From a virus: a DNA stretch of 38,700 nt. Below, piece by piece: positions 8,001 to 17,240 of the stretch. The notes below the pieces were generated by a model. That model was not told where the DNA came from. It was given only the letters and a program-made list of their open reading frames with translations, and searched no databases. The first letter of the stretch is position 1; every line of letters begins with the position of its first letter. A program made the translations under genes and the position numbers. The DNA is taken from IMG/VR virus record IMGVR_UViG_3300009164_000164, positions 1 to 38,700 of that record; one strand, given 5' to 3'.

Positions 8001-8334
8001 TATACCTCCTTGCTCCGTATGTGGGCAACAGTTTGATAACATATTCGAAGCAGTAGACCATATGGTTGATGATAATGATGAAGAAGAATTCAATCCCGTA
8101 ATATCCCTACCTAGTGGCTATCAACTGCTATTCGGTAGCCTACTACGCCAACTGTACGAGAAGGCAGATGACCCAGAAGAAGTCAAGACTATTGTTGAGT
8201 TGACTTACGCTACGCTGTATGCATCTGAATCTAACATACCATTGATGAAGAAGTTGGTTGAGGATGCAATCATCCACGAACATATGTTTGAGATAGACCG
8301 CGAATTAAAGAAACTACTAGAGGAGAACAAATGA
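7993..8334 (+). CDS. Conserved phage-type protein with N-terminal Cys2 knuckle
   Basis: 113 aa starting at a TTG that overlaps the primase stop by 8 nt (AGGA upstream). The N-terminus CSVCGQQFDNIFEAVDHMVD resembles a C2H2-like zinc finger with a single His. The rest is helical (GYQLLFGSLLRQLYEKADDP, then AIIHEHMFEIDRELKKLLEE). Its fixed place directly after the primase suggests a replication accessory role. I recognise no characterised function. The next gene start overlaps its stop (ATGA). Confidence 0.65.
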   Translation: MTDIPPCSVCGQQFDNIFEAVDHMVDDNDEEEFNPVISLPSGYQLLFGSLLRQLYEKADDPEEVKTIVELTYATLYASESNIPLMKKLVEDAIIHEHMFEIDRELKKLLEENK

Positions 8335-8639
8335 ACCATCCCGACCGCTACATAGACAGAACATTTACACTAGACAATGAACTGACTAAGGTTACCCAGG
8401 AACTAGGAGACCTGCTACTTAGCAAGCACCGTGACTACGGCCCAAAGAATATTTCTGATGCTCCTGGCGGTGCTATCAATGGCCTGCGTGTACGAATGCA
8501 CGACAAGTTAGCACGTATCAACAACCTAACCGATAGCGGTGTAGCCCCAGAGCATGAGTCGCTAGAGGATTCATTCAAGGACATGGCTAACTATGCAATC
8601 ATTGGGTTGCTAGTGCTCAGAGGAAAGTGGGATAACTAA
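8331..8639 (+). CDS. DUF1599 / Nmad1-like protein
   Basis: 102 aa. The block LLLSKHRDYGPKNISDAPGGAINGLRVRMHDKLARINNL, then EDSFKDMANYAIIGLLVLRGKW, matches the small all-helical family DUF1599, named for a proposed link to nucleotide modification and common in phages. It resembles a MazG/dUTPase-like fold with conserved acidic and His residues. Possible roles are nucleotide-pool housekeeping or DNA-base modification; no partner base-modification gene is visible here. Its stop overlaps the next start. Confidence 0.7.
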   Translation: MNHPDRYIDRTFTLDNELTKVTQELGDLLLSKHRDYGPKNISDAPGGAINGLRVRMHDKLARINNLTDSGVAPEHESLEDSFKDMANYAIIGLLVLRGKWDN

Positions 8640-10946: not shown

Positions 10947-11123
10947 TTACCCTCCCGTACTGTAGAAGCCAGTCCCATTGAACTTGACTGGTGGTGCGCT
11001 ATACACCCTGCTCATAGGTTCATTGCACGTATCACAATATGGGATAATCTCATCTTCTGTCATACCCCTGCTGACAGTAACCGACTCATTGTCGGCATTG
11101 CACTTGTACTCATAACTAGCCAC
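10947..11123 (-). CDS. FmdB-type zinc ribbon protein
   Basis: 58 aa from a GTG at 11123 that overlaps the previous stop (TAGTG), with GGTGG upstream; an ATG at 11156 inside the upstream gene is less likely. The sequence fits the FmdB/CxxC ribbon family: ASYEYKCNADN at the start, then YCDTCNEPMSRVYSAPPVKF and the typical GTGFYSTGG end. The first pair is degenerate: one Cys (YEYKC) instead of C-x2-C, while the second pair (CDTC) is intact. The family's biochemical role is poorly known; it is frequent in actinobacteria and their phages. Confidence 0.75.
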   Translation of the reverse strand: MASYEYKCNADNESVTVSRGMTEDEIIPYCDTCNEPMSRVYSAPPVKFNGTGFYSTGG

Positions 11124-11512
11124 TAGTACCACCCTCTCCTTTTGTGATGCTTCCAAGCCATGCAGGGTGTGCCATATCTATGCATAATGTAGGCAAATCC
11201 CCTGTCTATCTGCTTTGGTGCAGGTGTTTGTGTCGACATTCCCAATATCTGTGGTATACCGCCAGCGTTCTTACCCATTACCTTTACCTTGTTGTACGCC
11301 TCGGGTCTCCAGTTGGACTCCTTAGTCCACAGTTTCTCCAAGCATAGGTACTGATTATCTGCCCAAGCAAGTACTACATCTTGAGCATAAGCCTTGCTGT
11401 CTGCTACTTGCCACTCCCTTGCTGTTATCTTTGGCTCTGTTCGGTTAACCGAATGAGGAAAGAATGATACTGCAATCAGTATAACTAGCAGTAGTGCAAC
11501 TTTCTTTAGCAT
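11123..11512 (-). CDS. Membrane-anchored lytic-transglycosylase-like protein
   Basis: 129 aa. A hydrophobic N-terminus (residues 4-19, KVALLLVILIAVSFFP) is a signal peptide or anchor. The mature part has an SLT-like core: WTKESNWRPEAYN with the probable catalytic Glu, then GKNAGGIPQILGMS, GFAYIMHRYGTPCMAWKHH and the terminal RRGWY. This matches the compact transglycosylase domain of actinobacterial secreted proteins. It should cut peptidoglycan glycan strands outside the membrane. Its location in the accessory block, far from the lysis genes, suggests a role other than lysis, such as local wall remodelling or exclusion. A copy of the dispersed palindrome lies inside its coding sequence (11440-11453), contributing SVNR to the protein. 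Confidence 0.75.
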   Translation of the reverse strand: MLKKVALLLVILIAVSFFPHSVNRTEPKITAREWQVADSKAYAQDVVLAWADNQYLCLEKLWTKESNWRPEAYNKVKVMGKNAGGIPQILGMSTQTPAPKQIDRGFAYIMHRYGTPCMAWKHHKRRGWY

Positions 11513-11514
11513 AT

Positions 11515-11874
11515 CTACCTACCAATCAAGGGTTTTAACACCCTATAACTTATCAGCGCTCTGCCTTGGTCGCTTAACTTAGTAAAGGTCTTGCCACTTG
11601 CAATGACGCGCTCACCTGCAAGCATACCACCCCAAATGCCATAACCCAAGTTTTCAGTCTTCATACCTTCTTGTAGACAGGCTTGTTTCTTAGGGCAAGA
11701 GTTACATAGGGCGATAGCCCTACGTGTCTCAACCCCTAGAATGGCTTGCTTCTTAACAGAGAAAGCACCTTGCGGTACGTCAGGAAACCACGCATCTGGA
11801 TTGTCATCTCCGTGGCAGTTGCCTAGATTCTCCTCAATCTTCATAGAATTCATCGTGGAGTCTATCTGGGTCAT
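11515..11874 (-). CDS. whiB: WhiB-family Fe-S regulator
   Basis: 119 aa from the ATG at 11874 (GGAGGAA 7 nt upstream; an ATG at 11892 lacks one). All WhiB hallmarks are present: four Fe-S cysteines C20, C57, C60 and C66 in the C...C-x2-C-x5-C order, the DAWFP motif (27-31) and the GIWGG turn (79-83), followed by a short C-terminal segment. WhiB proteins bind sigma-A of RNA polymerase and alter promoter choice; they are confined to Actinobacteria and their phages. So this gene marks the host group and may redirect host or phage transcription. It lies 2 nt upstream of the transglycosylase gene. Confidence 0.92.
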   Translation of the reverse strand: MTQIDSTMNSMKIEENLGNCHGDDNPDAWFPDVPQGAFSVKKQAILGVETRRAIALCNSCPKKQACLQEGMKTENLGYGIWGGMLAGERVIASGKTFTKLSDQGRALISYRVLKPLIGR

Positions 11875-11947
11875 CTTCGTATTCCTCCTCATCTTCGTCT
11901 AGTCCTAGGGCTATGTCGTCTCCTTCTAACCACCTTGGCTCACTCAC
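11834..11947 (-). CDS. Tiny acidic protein overlapping whiB start
   Basis: 37 aa from a GTG (MSEPRWLEGDDIALGLDEDEEEY...), extremely acidic. It overlaps the stop of the upstream gene by 8 nt and the start of whiB by 41 nt. The ribosome site is weak. It fills an otherwise unexplained gap in a packed operon, but it could be non-coding. Confidence 0.4.
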   Translation of the reverse strand: MSEPRWLEGDDIALGLDEDEEEYEDDPDRLHDEFYED

Positions 11948-12143
11948 CTGCTAACCCCGCATCCGTTAAGTCCCCCGCTTGGGGGATATCTACTCTGACT
12001 GGATTAAACGCAGCATTATCTAAGTAGAGGTAGCCATAGTTGTCAGTAACGCAATCTCGCGCCACCTTTAACGCTTCCTCTGCCGTATCTGCATCTAACT
12101 CGTACTTCTCGGTATGATACACGCTTACAATGTATGTACCCAT
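11940..12143 (-). CDS. Small hypothetical protein
   Basis: 67 aa, ATG preceded by GGAGGG. The sequence YIVSVYHTEKYELDADTAEEALKVARD forms a beta-beta-alpha start as in small phage DpnD/PcfM-like or UBA-like proteins, but I cannot assign a family. Its ATG overlaps the stop of the upstream 43-aa gene (TAATG). Confidence 0.65.
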   Translation of the reverse strand: MGTYIVSVYHTEKYELDADTAEEALKVARDCVTDNYGYLYLDNAAFNPVRVDIPQAGDLTDAGLAGE

Positions 12144-12274
12144 TATATTCCCTCCACTATTACATCATCATATCCCATTTCAATCATTTCTTGCGCCCAG
12201 TACTCTGCATCTCGTCTGGTAAGATAGTTAGAGTTCATCTCACTACCACCCACCCATAAGGTATAGTTACCCAT
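12143..12274 (-). CDS. Tiny hypothetical protein
   Basis: 43 aa (MGNYTLWVGGSEMNSNYLTRRDAEYWAQ...). It is coupled to both neighbours by TAATG overlaps. The fold looks like beta-strand then helix, similar in outline to the next protein, so the two may be distant duplicates. No family recognised. Confidence 0.55.
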   Translation of the reverse strand: MGNYTLWVGGSEMNSNYLTRRDAEYWAQEMIEMGYDDVIVEGI

Positions 12275-12426
12275 TACGCCACCTCTCTTAGTAGTAATCG
12301 GACTTGCGCTATCTTTTGGTCGTGCTGGTACTCGTACTTTGATGTCGTGATACCGCTACTAGATGTAAGAACCTCGAGATAGTCGATAAGTACTTCACGT
12401 AACTGCTCCCTCTGCTCGGTTGTCAT
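12274..12426 (-). CDS. Tiny hypothetical helical protein
   Basis: 50 aa (MTTEQREQLREVLIDYLEVL...), with AGGGGG before its ATG. Amphipathic helices throughout. Its stop overlaps the next start (TAATG). Function unknown. Confidence 0.55.
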   Translation of the reverse strand: MTTEQREQLREVLIDYLEVLTSSSGITTSKYEYQHDQKIAQVRLLLREVA

Positions 12427-12427
12427 A

Positions 12428-12676
12428 TTACCCCCTATTGTATGCTGGAACATAGACTGGTTCTATGCTCGCGTTGATTAGTTGTCTACCCCACTCTACA
12501 GCCTTCTCCATAGTATCGAATGGCCCATACATTACCGAGCCTTCTTTACCACAGTCTGTGATTGTAATCCAATGCGCAACCTTCTGCCCCCAGATGGGGT
12601 CGACGATTGTGATTTTGTTTGTGTCGGCCATTCGGTTAACCGAACGACTACCGATTCCAACTGTAGGATTTTCCAT
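12428..12676 (-). CDS. Small hypothetical protein; alternative start inside a palindrome
   Basis: 82 aa from the ATG at 12676 (GGTGG upstream). An alternative ATG at 12631 gives 67 aa beginning MADTNKITIVDP; that ATG overlaps the edge of a dispersed palindrome (12631-12644) and lacks a ribosome site. The conserved-looking core is AHWITITDCGKEGSVMYGPFDTMEKAVEWG, a beta-alpha fold common in small phage proteins. The longer start overlaps the amidotransferase gene end by 29 nt. Function unknown. Confidence 0.6.
   Translation of the reverse strand: MENPTVGIGSRSVNRMADTNKITIVDPIWGQKVAHWITITDCGKEGSVMYGPFDTMEKAVEWGRQLINASIEPVYVPAYNRG
12617..12627 (+). repeat. Second dispersed motif copy, GTTTGTGTCGG
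   Basis: Exact 11-mer, inside the 5' part of the gene 12428-12676, adjacent to the palindrome at 12631. Confidence 0.75.
12631..12644. repeat. Palindrome copy, TTCGGTTAACCGAA
   Basis: Perfect 14-bp inverted repeat. On the minus strand it runs directly into an in-frame ATG (CCGAATG). A copy of the second motif, GTTTGTGTCGG, lies 3 bp away. Confidence 0.9.
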
Positions 12677-13478
12677 TATTCCACCAATCCCTTTCTCCTA
12701 GTGTGTATGCAGACTTGGTACGTTCTGGTGTATAGCATAGGCAGTTATCCCCGTACACACCAGTGCAGTCAAAGCAAGCATAGCACATCTCGCAGTAGTA
12801 CGGGTTGCCATCTTCAAATGGTACAGCACCACACGCACCGCACTCGCTCTCTATCTCAACTGCCGTAGGGTGTCCGCTATTACTGGGCTTGGTAAGATAT
12901 GATGATGACCAAGTGGAGGGCAAGTAGGTAGTGTTAGACCACCACATTCCCTCGTTATCCCAATGACCAGCAGACTCGTTGATGATGTAGCAGTTATCCT
13001 TAGCAGCAGGGTCTAGGGTGAAGATAACTATCTTACTACCTAGCGACCACTTGCTAACCATATTCCATACGTGCTCATCATCTAGTGCAGACACACCACC
13101 CATAGCAGGTAAGGTATCTTCTGCAAAGATACGCGTATCGCTACGGCGGTCGCCAGCCTTGATGTCGATGTCAAGGATACCATTGTGTGCCAGATATGTA
13201 TCTGGGTTACTAGGAACCTTGAACGGGTGGCAGTTATCATCATTCTTCACGCCGTGCGTTGCATAGCGTGCGTGGAACATAGCATAACTGTTTGGATATT
13301 CCTTGCGTACTTCTAGGAACTGCTTGATTACTTTCTTAGCAGACATACCCTTACCAGTAACGATACCATTCGGGGTTATTACAGCAAAGCCGAAGCCGTG
13401 CGGATTGTTACAAGAAGCACACTCTAAGTCCTTCTTCTTTGGCGTGCTATTAGGCGACGCAACGACGAGGAGACACAT
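12648..13478 (-). CDS. Class II glutamine amidotransferase
   Basis: 276 aa. The N-terminus MCLLV places the nucleophile Cys at position 2, exposed after Met removal, as in class II (Ntn) amidotransferases. Other family motifs: HARYATHG (residues about 69-76), NCHPF, LAHNGIL, and SDTRIFAE. Expected role: release of ammonia from glutamine and channelling to a synthetase. Residues about 210-250 contain six or more cysteines in CxxC-type knuckles (CGACGAV, CEMCYACFDC), an added zinc-binding module. It lies 3 nt downstream of the amidoligase gene and is surely co-translated, so that enzyme is the likely ammonia acceptor. A palindrome variant (13500) sits 21 nt upstream of its ATG. Confidence 0.85.
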   Translation of the reverse strand: MCLLVVASPNSTPKKKDLECASCNNPHGFGFAVITPNGIVTGKGMSAKKVIKQFLEVRKEYPNSYAMFHARYATHGVKNDDNCHPFKVPSNPDTYLAHNGILDIDIKAGDRRSDTRIFAEDTLPAMGGVSALDDEHVWNMVSKWSLGSKIVIFTLDPAAKDNCYIINESAGHWDNEGMWWSNTTYLPSTWSSSYLTKPSNSGHPTAVEIESECGACGAVPFEDGNPYYCEMCYACFDCTGVYGDNCLCYTPERTKSAYTLGERDWWNNGKSYSWNR

Positions 13479-13481
13479 AGG

Positions 13482-14696
13482 CTATTCACTCACATTCTGT
13501 TCGGCTAACCGAACGCTACTGATACCTAGTTGGTCAAGGAGTCCGACTAGATGTTCGTAGAGAGAACCATTCTCTCTTACATATGCAATGAAAGCACTAT
13601 CGGATAGCGCTCCATCTTTAACTTGTTGTAGGGTAAGCCCTCTAGTGTACTCAACGCTGGCGTGCGCTAAGTCCATATAAGCCTTAATTCTTTCTGGCTT
13701 GGTGGTACTCTTGAAGATACGTAACTCAAGTGTATCACGATTTTGGGTATTGACGGCAGAATACCTATCGGTATTGCGACCATCAGTTATCTTCTTGCTG
13801 AAACCACGATGGGTTTTCCATTCGCGGTTACCGAACTCATCTCGGGTAAGGGTGTTCTCCAAGACATCATCGAACTTAGCCCAACGAGTAGACTCACGAC
13901 CAGCAATAGTGGAATACAATCCCTCATTGCTATACACAAGGTTCAGGAAGCGGTGCATATGAGCACCACCATTAAACCCAGTACGTGAGATATGAATGTG
14001 GATACCAGTTGTACTAGCACCCCAAGTCATAACTCTATATCTATCTCGTAGTGTTGCAATGGTTTCCCAGAACTCGGTCGCCTCGTTCTTGAAGAAGTCG
14101 TGAGTCATAGGGTGGGTAACTATCTCGAAGCCATCATTGAGAGAGCCATCACTCTTGAGATATGCTAGGTCATATCGTTCTAGCATATTGCCAGCGTAAT
14201 CGGAAGGGTCAGTCCGACCATTACGACATTCCAACTCTATCTCCATACCAAAGTACAAGCGTTCATCCTTGTTGGTGGTGTGGAATATAAGGTCAGGTCT
14301 GTAACTGTAATCGTGAATCATCTCTGGCTCACGATAACAGTCTTCGCAACCATCTTGATAGTAATTATCGCAATCGTCGCAATAAGAAGCGTTGTCCTGT
14401 GTGCAATAACTGCACCAGTAATCGCCTCTATCTTGTATGTAGTTAGTGCCTTCTGAGTTGTACTCCTCACAGTAGGCGCAGAAACTCGCAGCGCGACTGA
14501 TACAGTTCTCGCACCACATAGCGTTGCCATCTACTTCGCAGTAGTTATCGTCAGATGTGCCTGACTCATCACACCTTTCACATATTCGCACGCAGTCAGA
14601 GCATACTTGCTGGTCTGGCTGTACTTGGAATACATCATCAGGTGCAATGGCGGTATCGCAGACCGCGCATTCTATACCTTCTTTGTTTTCTTCCAT
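13482..14696 (-). CDS. Amidoligase-family enzyme with N-terminal zinc knuckles
   Basis: 404 aa. Residues 10-120 carry eight C-x2-C knuckles (C10/13, 32/35, 39/42, 62/65, 73/76, 95/98, 106/109, 117/120), a tandem treble-clef-like array. The C-terminal domain matches the amidoligase (glutamine-synthetase-like carboxylate-amine ligase) pattern: FGMEIELE at 149-156, DGSL...GFEIVTHP at 183-196, HIH at 233-235, and LELRIF at 323-328. Such enzymes use ATP to form amide bonds, often with a class II amidotransferase in the same neighbourhood, as here. Substrate unknown: ammonia, a peptide amine or a wall component. A promoter, a hairpin and a palindrome lie directly upstream. Confidence 0.82.
   Translation of the reverse strand: MEENKEGIECAVCDTAIAPDDVFQVQPDQQVCSDCVRICERCDESGTSDDNYCEVDGNAMWCENCISRAASFCAYCEEYNSEGTNYIQDRGDYWCSYCTQDNASYCDDCDNYYQDGCEDCYREPEMIHDYSYRPDLIFHTTNKDERLYFGMEIELECRNGRTDPSDYAGNMLERYDLAYLKSDGSLNDGFEIVTHPMTHDFFKNEATEFWETIATLRDRYRVMTWGASTTGIHIHISRTGFNGGAHMHRFLNLVYSNEGLYSTIAGRESTRWAKFDDVLENTLTRDEFGNREWKTHRGFSKKITDGRNTDRYSAVNTQNRDTLELRIFKSTTKPERIKAYMDLAHASVEYTRGLTLQQVKDGALSDSAFIAYVRENGSLYEHLVGLLDQLGISSVRLAEQNVSE
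13500..13513. repeat. Palindrome variant, TTCGGCTAACCGAA
   Basis: One central mismatch (C for T). It lies in the 3' end of the amidoligase gene and 21 nt upstream of the amidotransferase start. As RNA the 5-6 bp stem remains intact; only the loop changes. Confidence 0.85.
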
Positions 14697-14711
14697 AACC
14701 TTACCTTGTCT

Positions 14712-14727
14712 GTTCGTTTAACCGAAC
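14712..14727. repeat. Palindrome variant, GTTCGTTTAACCGAAC
   Basis: One mismatch relative to GTTCGGTTAACCGAAC. It sits 15 nt upstream of the amidoligase start, between the promoter-proximal hairpin and the ribosome site. Confidence 0.85.
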
Positions 14728-14729
14728 GC

Positions 14730-14945
14730 TTAACCAACCACGCTTTGTGGTTGAGTGGTACTATCATACACCTTGCCTAAACTATTGTCAATTACGGCAT
14801 CAGCGATTTTACTAGATGTTTCTATTGCAAGTTTGGCAAGTTGGGCATAGCCCTGCTTCACCATTCTATCGTGTTCAGCGCGTAGAGATTGCCTGACGAT
14901 ATTTACCTCGGCAGGGGTCAACTCTATAGATACATTACTGGTCAT
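14730..14945 (-). CDS. Small helical hypothetical protein
   Basis: 71 aa (MTSNVSIELTPAEVNIVRQSLR...), helical with a basic middle. Its start overlaps the end of the upstream 64-aa gene by 11 nt. Its 3' end contains the promoter for the amidoligase gene. No family recognised. Confidence 0.6.
   Translation of the reverse strand: MTSNVSIELTPAEVNIVRQSLRAEHDRMVKQGYAQLAKLAIETSSKIADAVIDNSLGKVYDSTTQPQSVVG
14735..14753 (-). other. Leader hairpin of the amidoligase transcript
   Basis: CAACCAC-GCTTT-GTGGTTG, a 7-bp stem with a 5-nt loop. It begins a few nt after the predicted start site and is followed by the palindrome at 14712. No T-run follows, so it is not a simple terminator. Confidence 0.6.
14763..14791 (-). 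promoter_or_regulatory. Sigma-70-like promoter for amidoligase/amidotransferase
   Basis: Minus strand: TTGACA (14786-14791), exactly 17 bp, TATGAT (14763-14768). Near-consensus boxes. Predicted start about 14756, giving a leader of about 60 nt to the ATG at 14696. Confidence 0.72.
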
Positions 14946-15129
14946 TGGAGAAACTCATAACTGTCTCAAATACGATATCGTCAAGGGTATCAACGAGTTG
15001 TCCCCATTCCTTGAGGCTCATAGAACGCCCCAAGATTTCTTGTACGAGGTCGTAGTCAAGGCGTGCTTCCCACGAATTGTTTGTGTCGGAAATTTCCGCC
15101 ACCAGTTGGTCTGCTGATTTGTAGGTCAT
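14935..15129 (-). CDS. Small acidic hypothetical protein
   Basis: 64 aa (MTYKSADQLVAEISDTNNSW...). Acidic, helical. Its ATG overlaps the stop of the upstream membrane protein gene (TAATG). The second dispersed motif (15079-15089) lies inside and encodes SDTN. No family recognised. Confidence 0.6.
   Translation of the reverse strand: MTYKSADQLVAEISDTNNSWEARLDYDLVQEILGRSMSLKEWGQLVDTLDDIVFETVMSFSNDQ
15079..15089 (+). repeat. Second dispersed motif copy, GTTTGTGTCGG
   Basis: Exact 11-mer within the coding region of the 64-aa protein. Confidence 0.75.
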
Positions 15130-15281
15130 TAGCGTACCTTCTTACGGATAGACTTAGCGATACGAAGTACCACAACTACACCAGCAACGAGAAGAAGTGT
15201 GCGCCAGAAAACGTACACATCACCGAAGTAAGAAGTAAGGCTAATGCCGTACTCGCTTACATCTAAGTTAATCAGTTCCAT
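15129..15281 (-). CDS. Tiny membrane protein
   Basis: 50 aa (MELINLDVSEYGISLTSYF...), AAGGAT upstream. Residues about 22-39 form a hydrophobic helix (DVYVFWRTLLLVAGVVVVL), followed by a very basic tail (RIAKSIRKKVR). That pattern suggests a single-pass inner-membrane protein with the basic end in the cytoplasm. It is the first gene after the highly structured leader and promoter at 15282-15459. Function unknown; a small membrane effector is possible. Confidence 0.65.
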   Translation of the reverse strand: MELINLDVSEYGISLTSYFGDVYVFWRTLLLVAGVVVVLRIAKSIRKKVR

Positions 15282-15424
15282 ATCATATCCTTAGAACACC
15301 ATTCGGTTAACCGAACAGATGATAACGATTTGTTATCACGCGCTCACCGCAGGACTCGCACCTGCGTAAATGCCTATCGTGAGCCACCAGCCTACCCTAC
15401 CCAACGAAAGGTAGGCTCGCCAAT
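15282..15424 (-). ncRNA. Highly structured 5' leader (candidate regulatory RNA)
   Basis: From the predicted start near 15424 to the ATG at 15281 there are about 143 nt with four hairpins on the minus strand. H1: 15389-15396 with 15410-15417 (AGCCTACC/GGTAGGCT). H2: outer stem 15342-15347/15379-15384 (GCTCAC/GTGAGC) enclosing inner stem 15349-15353/15361-15365 (GCAGG/CCTGC). H3: 15320-15326/15332-15338 (TGATAAC/GTTATCA). H4: the palindrome at 15302. A tandem GGGTAGGGTAGG offers an alternative pairing within H1. I recognise no known riboswitch class. No gene lies in this stretch. Confidence 0.55.
15302..15315. repeat. Palindrome copy, TTCGGTTAACCGAA
   Basis: Perfect copy, 20 nt upstream of the ATG of the 50-aa membrane protein, last hairpin of the structured leader. 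Confidence 0.9.
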
Positions 15425-15430
15425 AAGACT

Positions 15431-15459
15431 AGTCTACCACCTGCATAAGTTTTGGTCAA
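15431..15459 (-). promoter_or_regulatory. Sigma-70-like promoter of the structured leader
   Basis: Minus strand: TTGACC (15454-15459), exactly 17 bp, TAGACT (15431-15436). The -35 box overlaps the stop codon of the 37-aa gene. The -10 box and its flank (GGTAGACTAGT) are identical to those of the promoter at 15957-15985. Confidence 0.72.
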
Positions 15460-15569
15460 ATGCCCCAATCTTCTACAACGCCGTCAATAGCATCTTGTAT
15501 ATCTGCTCTAAATACTTCTAGTTCATCATCATTAAGACCATTCGGGTCGTCAATGCTCCAAGTAATCAT
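15456..15569 (-). CDS. Tiny acidic protein
   Basis: 37 aa (MITWSIDDPNGLNDDELEVF...), acidic. The ATG overlaps the previous stop (TAATG). No family recognised. Confidence 0.5.
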   Translation of the reverse strand: MITWSIDDPNGLNDDELEVFRADIQDAIDGVVEDWGI

Positions 15570-15745
15570 TACATACCCTCTCTGATATTAACGTCTACGA
15601 TTTCAACCTTTGCAACGTGGTCAATGGCTAAGGTTCCCTGAATAATATCATTGACCTTATCCCAACCCCAAGCCTCATATGATGGAAACGACTCCTTGCC
15701 GTCTTTGTTGGTAACGCGTAGTGCTACTCCTGTTGGCTGGCTCAT
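15569..15745 (-). CDS. Small hypothetical protein
   Basis: 58 aa (MSQPTGVALRVTNKDGKESF...). It has a beta-rich start, a conserved-looking YEAWGWDKVNDIIQG segment and ends in VEIVDVNIREGM. Coupled on both sides by TAATG overlaps. Function unknown. Confidence 0.58.
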   Translation of the reverse strand: MSQPTGVALRVTNKDGKESFPSYEAWGWDKVNDIIQGTLAIDHVAKVEIVDVNIREGM

Positions 15746-15879
15746 TACATCATCTCCTTGTTGGTTGCTTCTTTGATAGCACGAACGCCTTGCTCGTACT
15801 TTTCTTGCTCTGCTCGCTTCTCATTTAGAATGTTGGTCTGTACTTCTAAGTGAGCGCTTAACTCATTCAGGTCTAACAT
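15745..15879 (-). CDS. Tiny coiled-coil-like protein
   Basis: 44 aa (MLDLNELSAHLEVQTNILNE...), highly charged, probably one long helix. It is the first gene of the transcript from the promoter at 15957-15985; a palindrome lies 16 nt upstream of its ATG. Confidence 0.55.
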   Translation of the reverse strand: MLDLNELSAHLEVQTNILNEKRAEQEKYEQGVRAIKEATNKEMM

Positions 15880-15895
15880 TTCGTTCTCACTCTCT

Positions 15896-15911
15896 GTTCG
15901 GTTAACCGAAC
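15896..15911. repeat. Palindrome copy, GTTCGGTTAACCGAAC
   Basis: Perfect 16-bp inverted repeat in the leader of the 44-aa gene, at about +39 to +54 from the predicted start, next to another hairpin (15913-15932). Confidence 0.92.
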
Positions 15912-15912
15912 A

Positions 15913-15932
15913 CTAGGTTGGATACCAACTAG
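15913..15932 (-). other. Leader hairpin
   Basis: CTAG-G-TTGG / CCAA-CTAG with an ATA loop and one bulged base. It is followed on the transcript by the palindrome at 15896, the same order as at 14735/14712. Confidence 0.55.
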
Positions 15933-15956
15933 GCAGGAGCCTCGCTGATAGACACT

Positions 15957-15985
15957 AGTCTACCCTATGGCTAAATATCCGTCAA
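15957..15985 (-). promoter_or_regulatory. Sigma-70-like promoter flanked by palindromes
   Basis: Minus strand: TTGACG (15980-15985), exactly 17 bp, TAGACT (15957-15962), start near 15950. One palindrome lies 6 bp upstream of the -35 box (15992-16005, about -42 to -55) and one in the leader (15896-15911). Confidence 0.75.
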
Positions 15986-15991
15986 GTACCA

Positions 15992-16005
15992 TTCGGTTAA
16001 CCGAA
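15992..16005. repeat. Palindrome copy, TTCGGTTAACCGAA
   Basis: Perfect copy just upstream of a -35 box, a position usual for an activator site. Confidence 0.9.
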
Positions 16006-16041
16006 CGCCGCTAATCTCTTGCCTGCCCTGCCCTGTGATTT

Positions 16042-16119
16042 GTTTGTGTCGGAAAAAAGTTTCTTGTCGCTGGTCGTTCCTTGCCAGTATTCGGTTTGTG
16101 TTGGTTTGTGTCGGCCGAA
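16042..16119 (+). repeat. Cluster of second motif within a split palindrome
   Basis: GTTTGTGTCGG occurs at 16042-16052 and 16104-16114, plus a near copy GTTTGTGTTGG at 16094-16104. The last two lie between TTCGG (16090-16094) and CCGAA (16115-16119), the two halves of the palindrome spread apart by 20 nt. No gene is visible between 15880 and 16136. Confidence 0.65.
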
Positions 16120-16128
16120 TTTTTGGGC

Positions 16129-16156
16129 AAAAAAATAACCCCCGCTTTCGCGGGGG
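16129..16156 (-). terminator. Strong intrinsic terminator
   Basis: On the minus strand a CCCCCGC-GAAA-GCGGGGG hairpin is followed by TTATTTTTTT. It lies just after the stop of the gene 16172-16768 and separates it from the operon downstream. Confidence 0.9.
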
Positions 16157-16171
16157 CTATCTTCTTCTTGC

Positions 16172-16768
16172 TTATGCGCTTGCCATCTTACCTTCTAAGA
16201 TGAACTGGATTTCTACTAGGGTGTCCAGTTGAGCATCTTCTAGGGTAGAAGTATCCAACGCGGTGAAGAATGCGAGGATGTCTTTCAGCGTATCCTTTGG
16301 AGCCTTAGCCTTTGCGGGTGTTGATGCTCCCGCTTTAGCCTTCTCAGCCTTATTCTTGCGAACACCCGCGATTTCTTTGGTCAAGATTTCTAGGGTCTTA
16401 TATTGCTCACCCTTGCCAGCGCCAAGAAGGTCGTATGATGCGGCGGCGGTTGAGAGTTGCTTGGCGATAGGTAGGGCGCGGAAGTCCGCGTGTAGGGCGC
16501 GCAACTTTGACCAAGTTGGGAGCGCTGGCGCGTGAGATGACTTCACGAATGAGGACACCTTGCCACTATCTTCCAAGCCTTTGATGAACTTCTTCTGGTC
16601 GGCAACTGATAGGCGGGACTCAAGAATTAGGGTCGCGCTAAGGTTCTCAATCGCTTTCACGATTTCATTCTCCGACTTTGCAGAAGTGGTGCAGACACCA
16701 TTCCAAGCGGTTGCAATCTTTGGAGCCTTGATTTCTACTGACTTTGGAGCCTTTGACTTTGTAGCCAT
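16172..16768 (-). CDS. Hypothetical protein, Lys/Ala-rich
   Basis: 198 aa. A basic N-terminus (MATKSKAPKSVEIKAPK) leads to a helical body (SENEIVKAIENLSATLILESRLSV...; SSHAPALPTWSKLRALHADFRALPI), then a Lys/Ala/Pro linker (residues about 140-160) and a C-terminal helical segment rich in Thr, Leu and Asp. No family recognised. It stands alone: its own terminator follows, and about 740 nt of non-coding palindrome-rich DNA precede it. Facing the terminase gene across that region, it could encode a regulator or a DNA-binding protein for the region, but this is only positional inference. Confidence 0.65.
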   Translation of the reverse strand: MATKSKAPKSVEIKAPKIATAWNGVCTTSAKSENEIVKAIENLSATLILESRLSVADQKKFIKGLEDSGKVSSFVKSSHAPALPTWSKLRALHADFRALPIAKQLSTAAASYDLLGAGKGEQYKTLEILTKEIAGVRKNKAEKAKAGASTPAKAKAPKDTLKDILAFFTALDTSTLEDAQLDTLVEIQFILEGKMASA

Positions 16769-16896
16769 TTTTTATTTCTCATTTCTGGTTGGGTACTGAA
16801 TGCCGTTTGGCATAAGAGAACGATACCACGATTTCCAATATCGCAACACCAAGCGCAAGGGTCGGGGGGGTGATTTCTTTGGCGGGTCGGGGGTCA

Positions 16897-16910
16897 TTCG
16901 GTTAACCGAA
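16897..16910. repeat. Palindrome copy, TTCGGTTAACCGAA
   Basis: Perfect copy inside the G-rich part of the non-coding region, about 128 nt upstream of the 198-aa gene. Confidence 0.9.
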
Positions 16911-17240
16911 CGGGCGGGAGCGCGGGCGGGTTGAGCGTGAGCGCGGGAGCGTGAGCCGACACGCGGGGGAATATGGCGGGGAGCATAGGCGCGGGCGTGG
17001 TATAAGTCGGGCGCGAGAGATGCCGACACCTTCACCGATTATATTTTATTTTATCGGGGGGAATATCTATTATCTAAACCCCTTCGGGGGATAGTCACTC
17101 ATTCACAATTCCCACAACAATAAAGAGCGCAGAATATGCGCGCAAGCGCAATGTTTGACCCGAGATTTATTAAATCGAGGTTCTTTTATATATATATACT
17201 CCCTAAATAATTTTCTGTTATATTTAATTGCCCCCCTTCA

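Follow-up and report, generated by a model that had tools for sequence, protein, structure and literature searches.

An amidoligase and class II glutamine amidotransferase gene pair with added cysteine modules, set in a lineage-specific palindrome array of a probable actinobacteriophage

Pairs of genes encoding an amidoligase and a glutamine amidotransferase (GATase) have been described in phages before. Such a pair was reported for the OM43 phages MEP401 and MEP402, in an account whose treatment of these genes names phiEco32 and Marvin as precedents and recalls that wall modification and superinfection exclusion had been proposed for the former and secondary metabolites for the latter (PMC10580990, citing Iyer 2009 and Mageeney 2012). 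In the OM43 phages the two genes are adjacent, as in the locus described here, but they overlap (PMC10580990). Their amidoligase, at 548 aa, contains two CxxC motifs only in our comparison, and their GATase contains none. The phiEco32/LUZ24 type likewise combines an Amidoligase_2 protein and a class II GATase in one operon; it adds to them genes for ATP-grasp, AIG2 and a second COOH-NH2 ligase (Iyer et al. 2009, via PMC10580990; PMC3890496), none of which occurs in the conserved neighborhood of our pair. UFV-P2 and other Luz24-like phages also carry a larger gene set (PMC3890496). In cluster S mycobacteriophages, Marvin gp105 and gp106 agree with our pair in gene order, adjacency, folds and the presence of cysteine clusters in both proteins, at 24-32% identity, but the Marvin amidoligase has fewer CxxC motifs, whereas ours has four full modules. 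We note that gp105 (L001:4920-6281) and its cluster S homologs are annotated as glutamine amidotransferases, yet gp105 is the amidoligase and gp106 the amidotransferase. Glutamine synthetase, gamma-glutamylmethylamide synthetase (GMAS) and YbdK have the fold predicted for our amidoligase and share its GxHxHxS and ExR motifs, but they are stand-alone enzymes without zinc modules or a dedicated glutaminase. MurT-GatD combines a Mur ligase (MurT) with a class I GATase (GatD), and these folds differ from those of our pair. Its two-gene logic, glutamine-dependent amidation of a carboxylate, in that case in peptidoglycan, is the same (PMC3267633).

The window analyzed here is the whole stretch of 38,700 nucleotides of the IMG/VR virus record IMGVR_UViG_3300009164_000164. 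Across the terminase-portal region, and in a few further stretches, its DNA is 77-78% identical to that of the phage isolates LanE43-AprF5 and AprE7 (hereafter F5 and E7), whose host is the freshwater actinobacterium Ca. Planktophila (PMC10202952). Given this likeness, and the WhiB and sigma-factor genes that it carries, the window is most likely from a phage of Ca. Nanopelagicales. The literature that we searched did not mention the pair for actinophages from fresh water. A first-pass annotation, made from the sequence alone, had proposed an amidoligase gene (AM) and a class II amidotransferase gene (GA) in one operon. Both open reading frames are indeed there on the minus strand with the motifs noted in them, and the ATG of GA, at 13478, lies 3 nt after the stop codon of AM (13482-13484) (Table 1). 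That annotation had also held that such pairs occur in phages, which agrees with the OM43 report (PMC10580990) and with the annotated cluster S genomes.

Table 1. Features of the AM-GA locus, in window positions, with the evidence for each.
Feature	Position	Strand	Basis
AM, amidoligase gene, 404 aa	13482..14696	-	ORF, Amidoligase_2 match, model, dN/dS
AM catalytic domain, predicted glutamine-synthetase fold, residues 147-352	13641..14258	-	invariant residues, GlnA motif match
AM N-terminal putative zinc array, residues 10-120, eight CxxC as four C2-C2 LIM-like modules	14337..14669	-	cysteine conservation, shuffles, Foldseek
GA, class II glutamine-amidotransferase-fold gene, 276 aa	12648..13478	-	ORF, family matches, dN/dS
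GA predicted Ntn glutaminase domain, residues 2-190 (C2, R71, N99, G100, D114)	12909..13475	-	invariance, Foldseek
GA C-terminal cysteine cluster, residues 213-248 (C213, 216, 229, 232, 235, 238, 246, 248)	12735..12842	-	invariance
Palindrome TCGTTTAACCGA with one mismatch, 18-31 nt upstream of the AM start	14714..14725		same place in many relatives, lineage-specific sequence
Palindrome TCGGCTAACCGA in last AM codons, before GA start	13501..13512		same distance from AM end in nearly all array-bearing relatives
Palindrome TCGGTTAACCGA just after GA, at start of next gene	12632..12643		site scan
198-aa protein, candidate regulator of the palindromes	16172..16768	-	identity follows palindrome class; inferred

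The assignment of AM to the amidoligases was borne out by profile searches, in which it matched Pfam Amidoligase_2 (PF12224) with E = 3.4e-8 and 34.1 bits (cut-off 22), as did all 46 of its aligned relatives, which are 43-85% identical to it. The motifs FGMEIELE, GIHIHIS and LELRIF are present, and residues E152, E154, E191, H233, H235, R311, N316, E324 and R326 are invariant across the alignment. By motif comparison, GIHIHIS corresponds to GMHCHMS and ELRIF to EVRFP of E. coli GlnA; a direct hhalign of AM against one GlnA sequence fell short of significance and recovered the GxHxHxS motif only. A sequence search against the PDB returned casein kinase as its sole match (E > 0.1), which we dismissed as chance, and a fold search was therefore needed. 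The predicted model (mean pLDDT 86) found glutamine synthetase, GMAS, YbdK, PafA and Dop as its best PDB matches, with E-values of 2e-5 to 1e-3. Model and profile together confirm AM as an Amidoligase_2 protein with a predicted glutamine-synthetase fold. Its putative metal/ATP and phosphoryl-transfer residues are complete; a profile match and the ATP-site residues, whose absence the first-pass annotation had named as grounds for giving up the assignment, are thus both present. Most viral fold matches of AM are annotated as amidoligase and one as a LIM domain protein, so that this architecture is already represented in databases.

For GA, the class II assignment also stood, on different grounds. 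The protein starts with MC, placing a cysteine at position 2, and contains HARYATHG and LAHNGIL. Its matches to GATase_6 (E = 1.9e-4, 21.9 bits) and GATase_4 (E = 8.4e-4, 18.8 bits) stay under the curated cut-offs of 27 and 23, respectively, and class II membership is therefore claimed on fold and catalytic site rather than on these Pfam families, although both were matched by all 49 aligned GA relatives (59-92% identical to the window protein). PHROG phrog_25883 matches GA over its whole length (E = 5.5e-37), and C2, R71, H75, N99, G100 and D114 are invariant in the alignment. The model, of moderate overall confidence, is well predicted for residues 1-185 but poorly for the tail; its best Foldseek match was the glutaminase domain of GlmS (E = 2.9e-6), followed by EgtC, including EgtC bound to its gamma-glutamyl substrate, and PurF. 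TM-scores in the comparisons with solved structures were low, at 0.3-0.46. GA thus has a predicted class II (Ntn) amidotransferase fold with a complete glutamine site, and the conservation of its glutamine pocket fits a glutaminase and a gamma-glutamyl hydrolase such as EgtC alike. In comparisons with relatives, dN/dS was 0.14-0.26 for AM and 0.11-0.26 for GA, well below 1, and both genes are therefore real and constrained.

Both proteins carry cysteine-rich additions, as had been proposed. The first 125 residues of AM contain exactly eight CxxC motifs, against a mean of 2.15 and a maximum of 8 in 5000 shuffles; the relatives mostly have 7-8, and the cysteines of the array are mostly invariant among the 46 of them. 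In Foldseek, this part of AM gave weak matches to the LIM domains of LMO2, Isl1 and PINCH1 (E of about 1e-2 to 1e-1), and the array would probably bind zinc. GA ends in knuckles of its own, a tail whose eight cysteines are invariant in all 49 relatives and which coincides with the low-confidence part of its model. The number of CxxC motifs per amidoligase varies between families, with eight in that of the window and six, three to four, two or none elsewhere, and the putative zinc array is therefore a variable addition. The pair is already known in phages, and the version in the window adds an enlarged zinc array to it. The presence of such modules on both AM and GA would favor a large partner; the first-pass annotation had suggested that both may dock onto the same one.

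Scans of viral contigs identified 81 distinct relatives with both genes, and in every viral locus with enough flanking sequence GA directly follows AM on the same strand and in the same order, so that the pairing in these phages is obligate. Counted over loci, not all of which are independent, AM is followed by GA in 139 of 148, all nine misses being Clostridia, and GA is preceded by AM in 132 of 132. Among the 18 Clostridia loci (L072-L089), profiles found a GATase in eight, and a class II GATase-like open reading frame was recognized on reading in seven more. Several of these Clostridia loci adjoin resolvases, integrases or other mobile-element genes. AM and GA have also diverged together: the correlation of their distances (r = 0.88, in part a product of shared ancestry) was the highest among the pairs tested. 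The pair, or a close arrangement of it, was found in divergent versions in Marvin-type mycobacteriophages, OM43 phage MEP402, an Acinetobacter phage and Rhizobium phages, the last with an ATP-grasp gene between the amidoligase and the GATase. The C. difficile phage AR1086-1 (L191:4237-6426) has an amidoligase without CxxC motifs or an adjacent GATase, beside an RNA-repair gene of the RlaP family; the ligase fold therefore does not need a GATase everywhere. Finally, E7 and F5 lack AM and GA while keeping the terminase, portal, sigma-factor, WhiB, transglycosylase-like and FmdB-like genes, which makes the pair accessory, and dispensable in this phage group. Neither AM nor GA matched the anti-phage defense models of PADLOC.

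Because of the established chemistry of both families, we consider it probable, though well short of certain, that AM and GA form a single amide synthetase of two subunits that depends on glutamine. That amides are made here at the expense of glutamine had in general terms been put forward in the first-pass annotation, and the complete catalytic sites of both proteins support this idea. After loss of Met1, Cys2 of GA would hydrolyze glutamine to glutamate and ammonia; AM would use ATP and a divalent metal to turn a carboxylate of the substrate into an acyl phosphate; and the ammonia released by GA would attack this acyl phosphate to give a carboxamide. The LIM-like modules of AM and the cysteine tail of GA may join the subunits into a complex, bind a large target, or both. 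The target would most likely belong to the macromolecules or cell-wall precursors of the host and be modified in the course of infection.

A more specific version, in which the carboxylate is that of D-Glu or meso-DAP in a peptidoglycan precursor and its amidation serves superinfection exclusion, follows the suggestion published for phiEco32 (Iyer 2009, as cited in PMC10580990), and a transglycosylase-like gene whose product has an N-terminal hydrophobic segment lies in the same operon. However, that gene is also kept in E7 and F5, which lack the pair, zinc modules on a soluble enzyme would be needless for a small precursor, and the pair is found in phages of very different hosts; we regard this substrate as doubtful, if still worth keeping in mind. 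The transglycosylase-like gene (11123-11512, minus strand) is retained in nearly all relatives and adjoins the gene for a WhiB-like protein (11515-11892, minus strand), which shows 24-70% identity between close relatives while its neighbors are conserved.

The main rival is a gamma-glutamyl cycle, since the glutamine pocket would be the same in both cases. Here, AM would join glutamate to an amine, as GMAS, PuuA and EgtA do, and an EgtC-like GA would later remove the glutamyl group, so that a small metabolite is made or salvaged. This would accord with the matches of the AM model to GMAS and YbdK, with that of the GA model to EgtC holding a gamma-glutamyl substrate, and with Luz24-like phages, in which the pair stands beside a second COOH-NH2 ligase and an AIG2/GGCT gene (PMC3890496). 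On the other hand, GA retains HARYATHG and AHNG of the GlmS/PurF type and has GlmS as its best match, the conserved operon contains no other metabolite enzyme, and the zinc modules suggest a large partner, all of which make the cycle unlikely. Protein tagging of the PafA/Dop kind seems more unlikely still: a protein would receive an amino acid or peptide through the action of AM, and GA would be the hydrolase for its processing or removal. The structural matches of AM do include PafA and Dop, and the zinc modules would suit a protein target, but we found no small tag with a conserved C-terminus when the 71-aa and FmdB-like neighbors were examined. That AM, GA or both have lost catalysis and act purely as binding proteins through zinc is very improbable, given that all catalytic residues are invariant over 43-92% identity, even though the zinc modules are large and an amidoligase without a GATase exists elsewhere.

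The two neighbors just mentioned were also considered as substrates or partners of the pair. The FmdB-like zinc ribbon (10947-11156, minus strand) ends in an invariant STGG, of which the GG is conserved in the family; we rejected it as a tag or substrate, as E7 and F5 keep the GG without the pair. The 71-aa gene upstream of the pair is present in 74 of 80 contigs and absent from E7 and F5. Its product has a variable C-terminus and nothing similar was seen beside distant pairs, which leaves it unsupported as a tag or third component.

The first-pass annotation had further placed the operon under the control of a palindrome system. In the window, TTCGGTTAACCGAA occurs in six perfect and two near copies, which are confined to the stretch from 11.4 to 16.9 kb (11435-16912), and matches to the palindrome core at up to two mismatches number 9, against 1.0 expected. 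Arrays of this kind were identified at the loci L004-L006, L090-L142 and L168-L187 in addition to the window, while about half of the 81 relatives have no such array. Array-bearing relatives carry other palindromes at the same positions (TCCGTTTAAACGGA, GTCGGCTAGCCGAC, TCGGGTTAGCCCGA, TCGGACTAGTCCGA, TCGGGATATCCCGA and TTCGTGTAAACGAA), among them the positions at the AM end and ahead of its start. Within a genome the sequence is nearly uniform, its sites having changed in concert, and it differs between phage lineages, giving at least seven classes. The window and ten near-complete relatives each have 6-9 sites, none of them outside the AM-GA operon, and the arms of the other classes occur near background. 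What stood of the proposal, then, are conserved sites before both genes and their concerted change, and these make regulation through the palindromes, while still putative, better supported than we had expected. We considered RNA hairpins as an alternative, but in each class the palindrome extends, fully or almost, through the four bases at its center, which would be needless for a loop; a dimeric DNA-binding protein is therefore the preferred reading.

A candidate for this protein is the 198-aa product of the gene at 16172-16768. Its identity is 0.66 among members of one palindrome class and 0.30 across classes (z = 10.5, the strongest of 14 families), in a comparison in which phylogeny is not fully controlled and a few class labels are doubtful; neighboring genes differ far less. 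Since it tracks the palindrome class, this protein is the candidate cognate regulator, and the palindrome site in the region upstream of its gene suggests a putative DNA-binding regulator that is autoregulated. It had no family match in our family searches. WhiB was also considered in this role and rejected, as its variation does not follow palindrome class. Judged from the site sequences, the array looks like a diversifying operator system. The stoperators of cluster A mycobacteriophages are likewise numerous regulator sites of lineage-specific sequence, but they are asymmetric and distributed genome-wide (PMC6550527, PMC9283540), whereas the sites in the window are palindromic and confined to one operon.

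Taken at its boldest, the locus might hold the first recognized ligase of the glutamine-synthetase fold to have a dedicated class II glutaminase as its supplier and LIM-like modules that direct it to a macromolecule of the host, turning specific carboxylates of a host protein or polymer into amides under an operator array of lineage-diversifying specificity; we offer this only tentatively. Should the phage amidate a host protein or wall precursor, this would be a mechanism of host takeover or exclusion not yet described. Phages of unrelated hosts and mobile elements of Clostridia share the pair, and its function is directly testable, given its conserved and complete active sites and its cultured relatives in a standard laboratory system (the cluster S phages, Marvin included, on M. 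smegmatis). In addition, the palindrome array and the gene that tracks it would give a naturally diversified series of regulators and operators, in phages of a freshwater bacterial group that is among the most abundant. Elsewhere in the window, an open reading frame on the plus strand (8331-8639) matches DUF1599, nucleotide modification associated domain 1 (E = 7e-8), a possible link to modified nucleotides.
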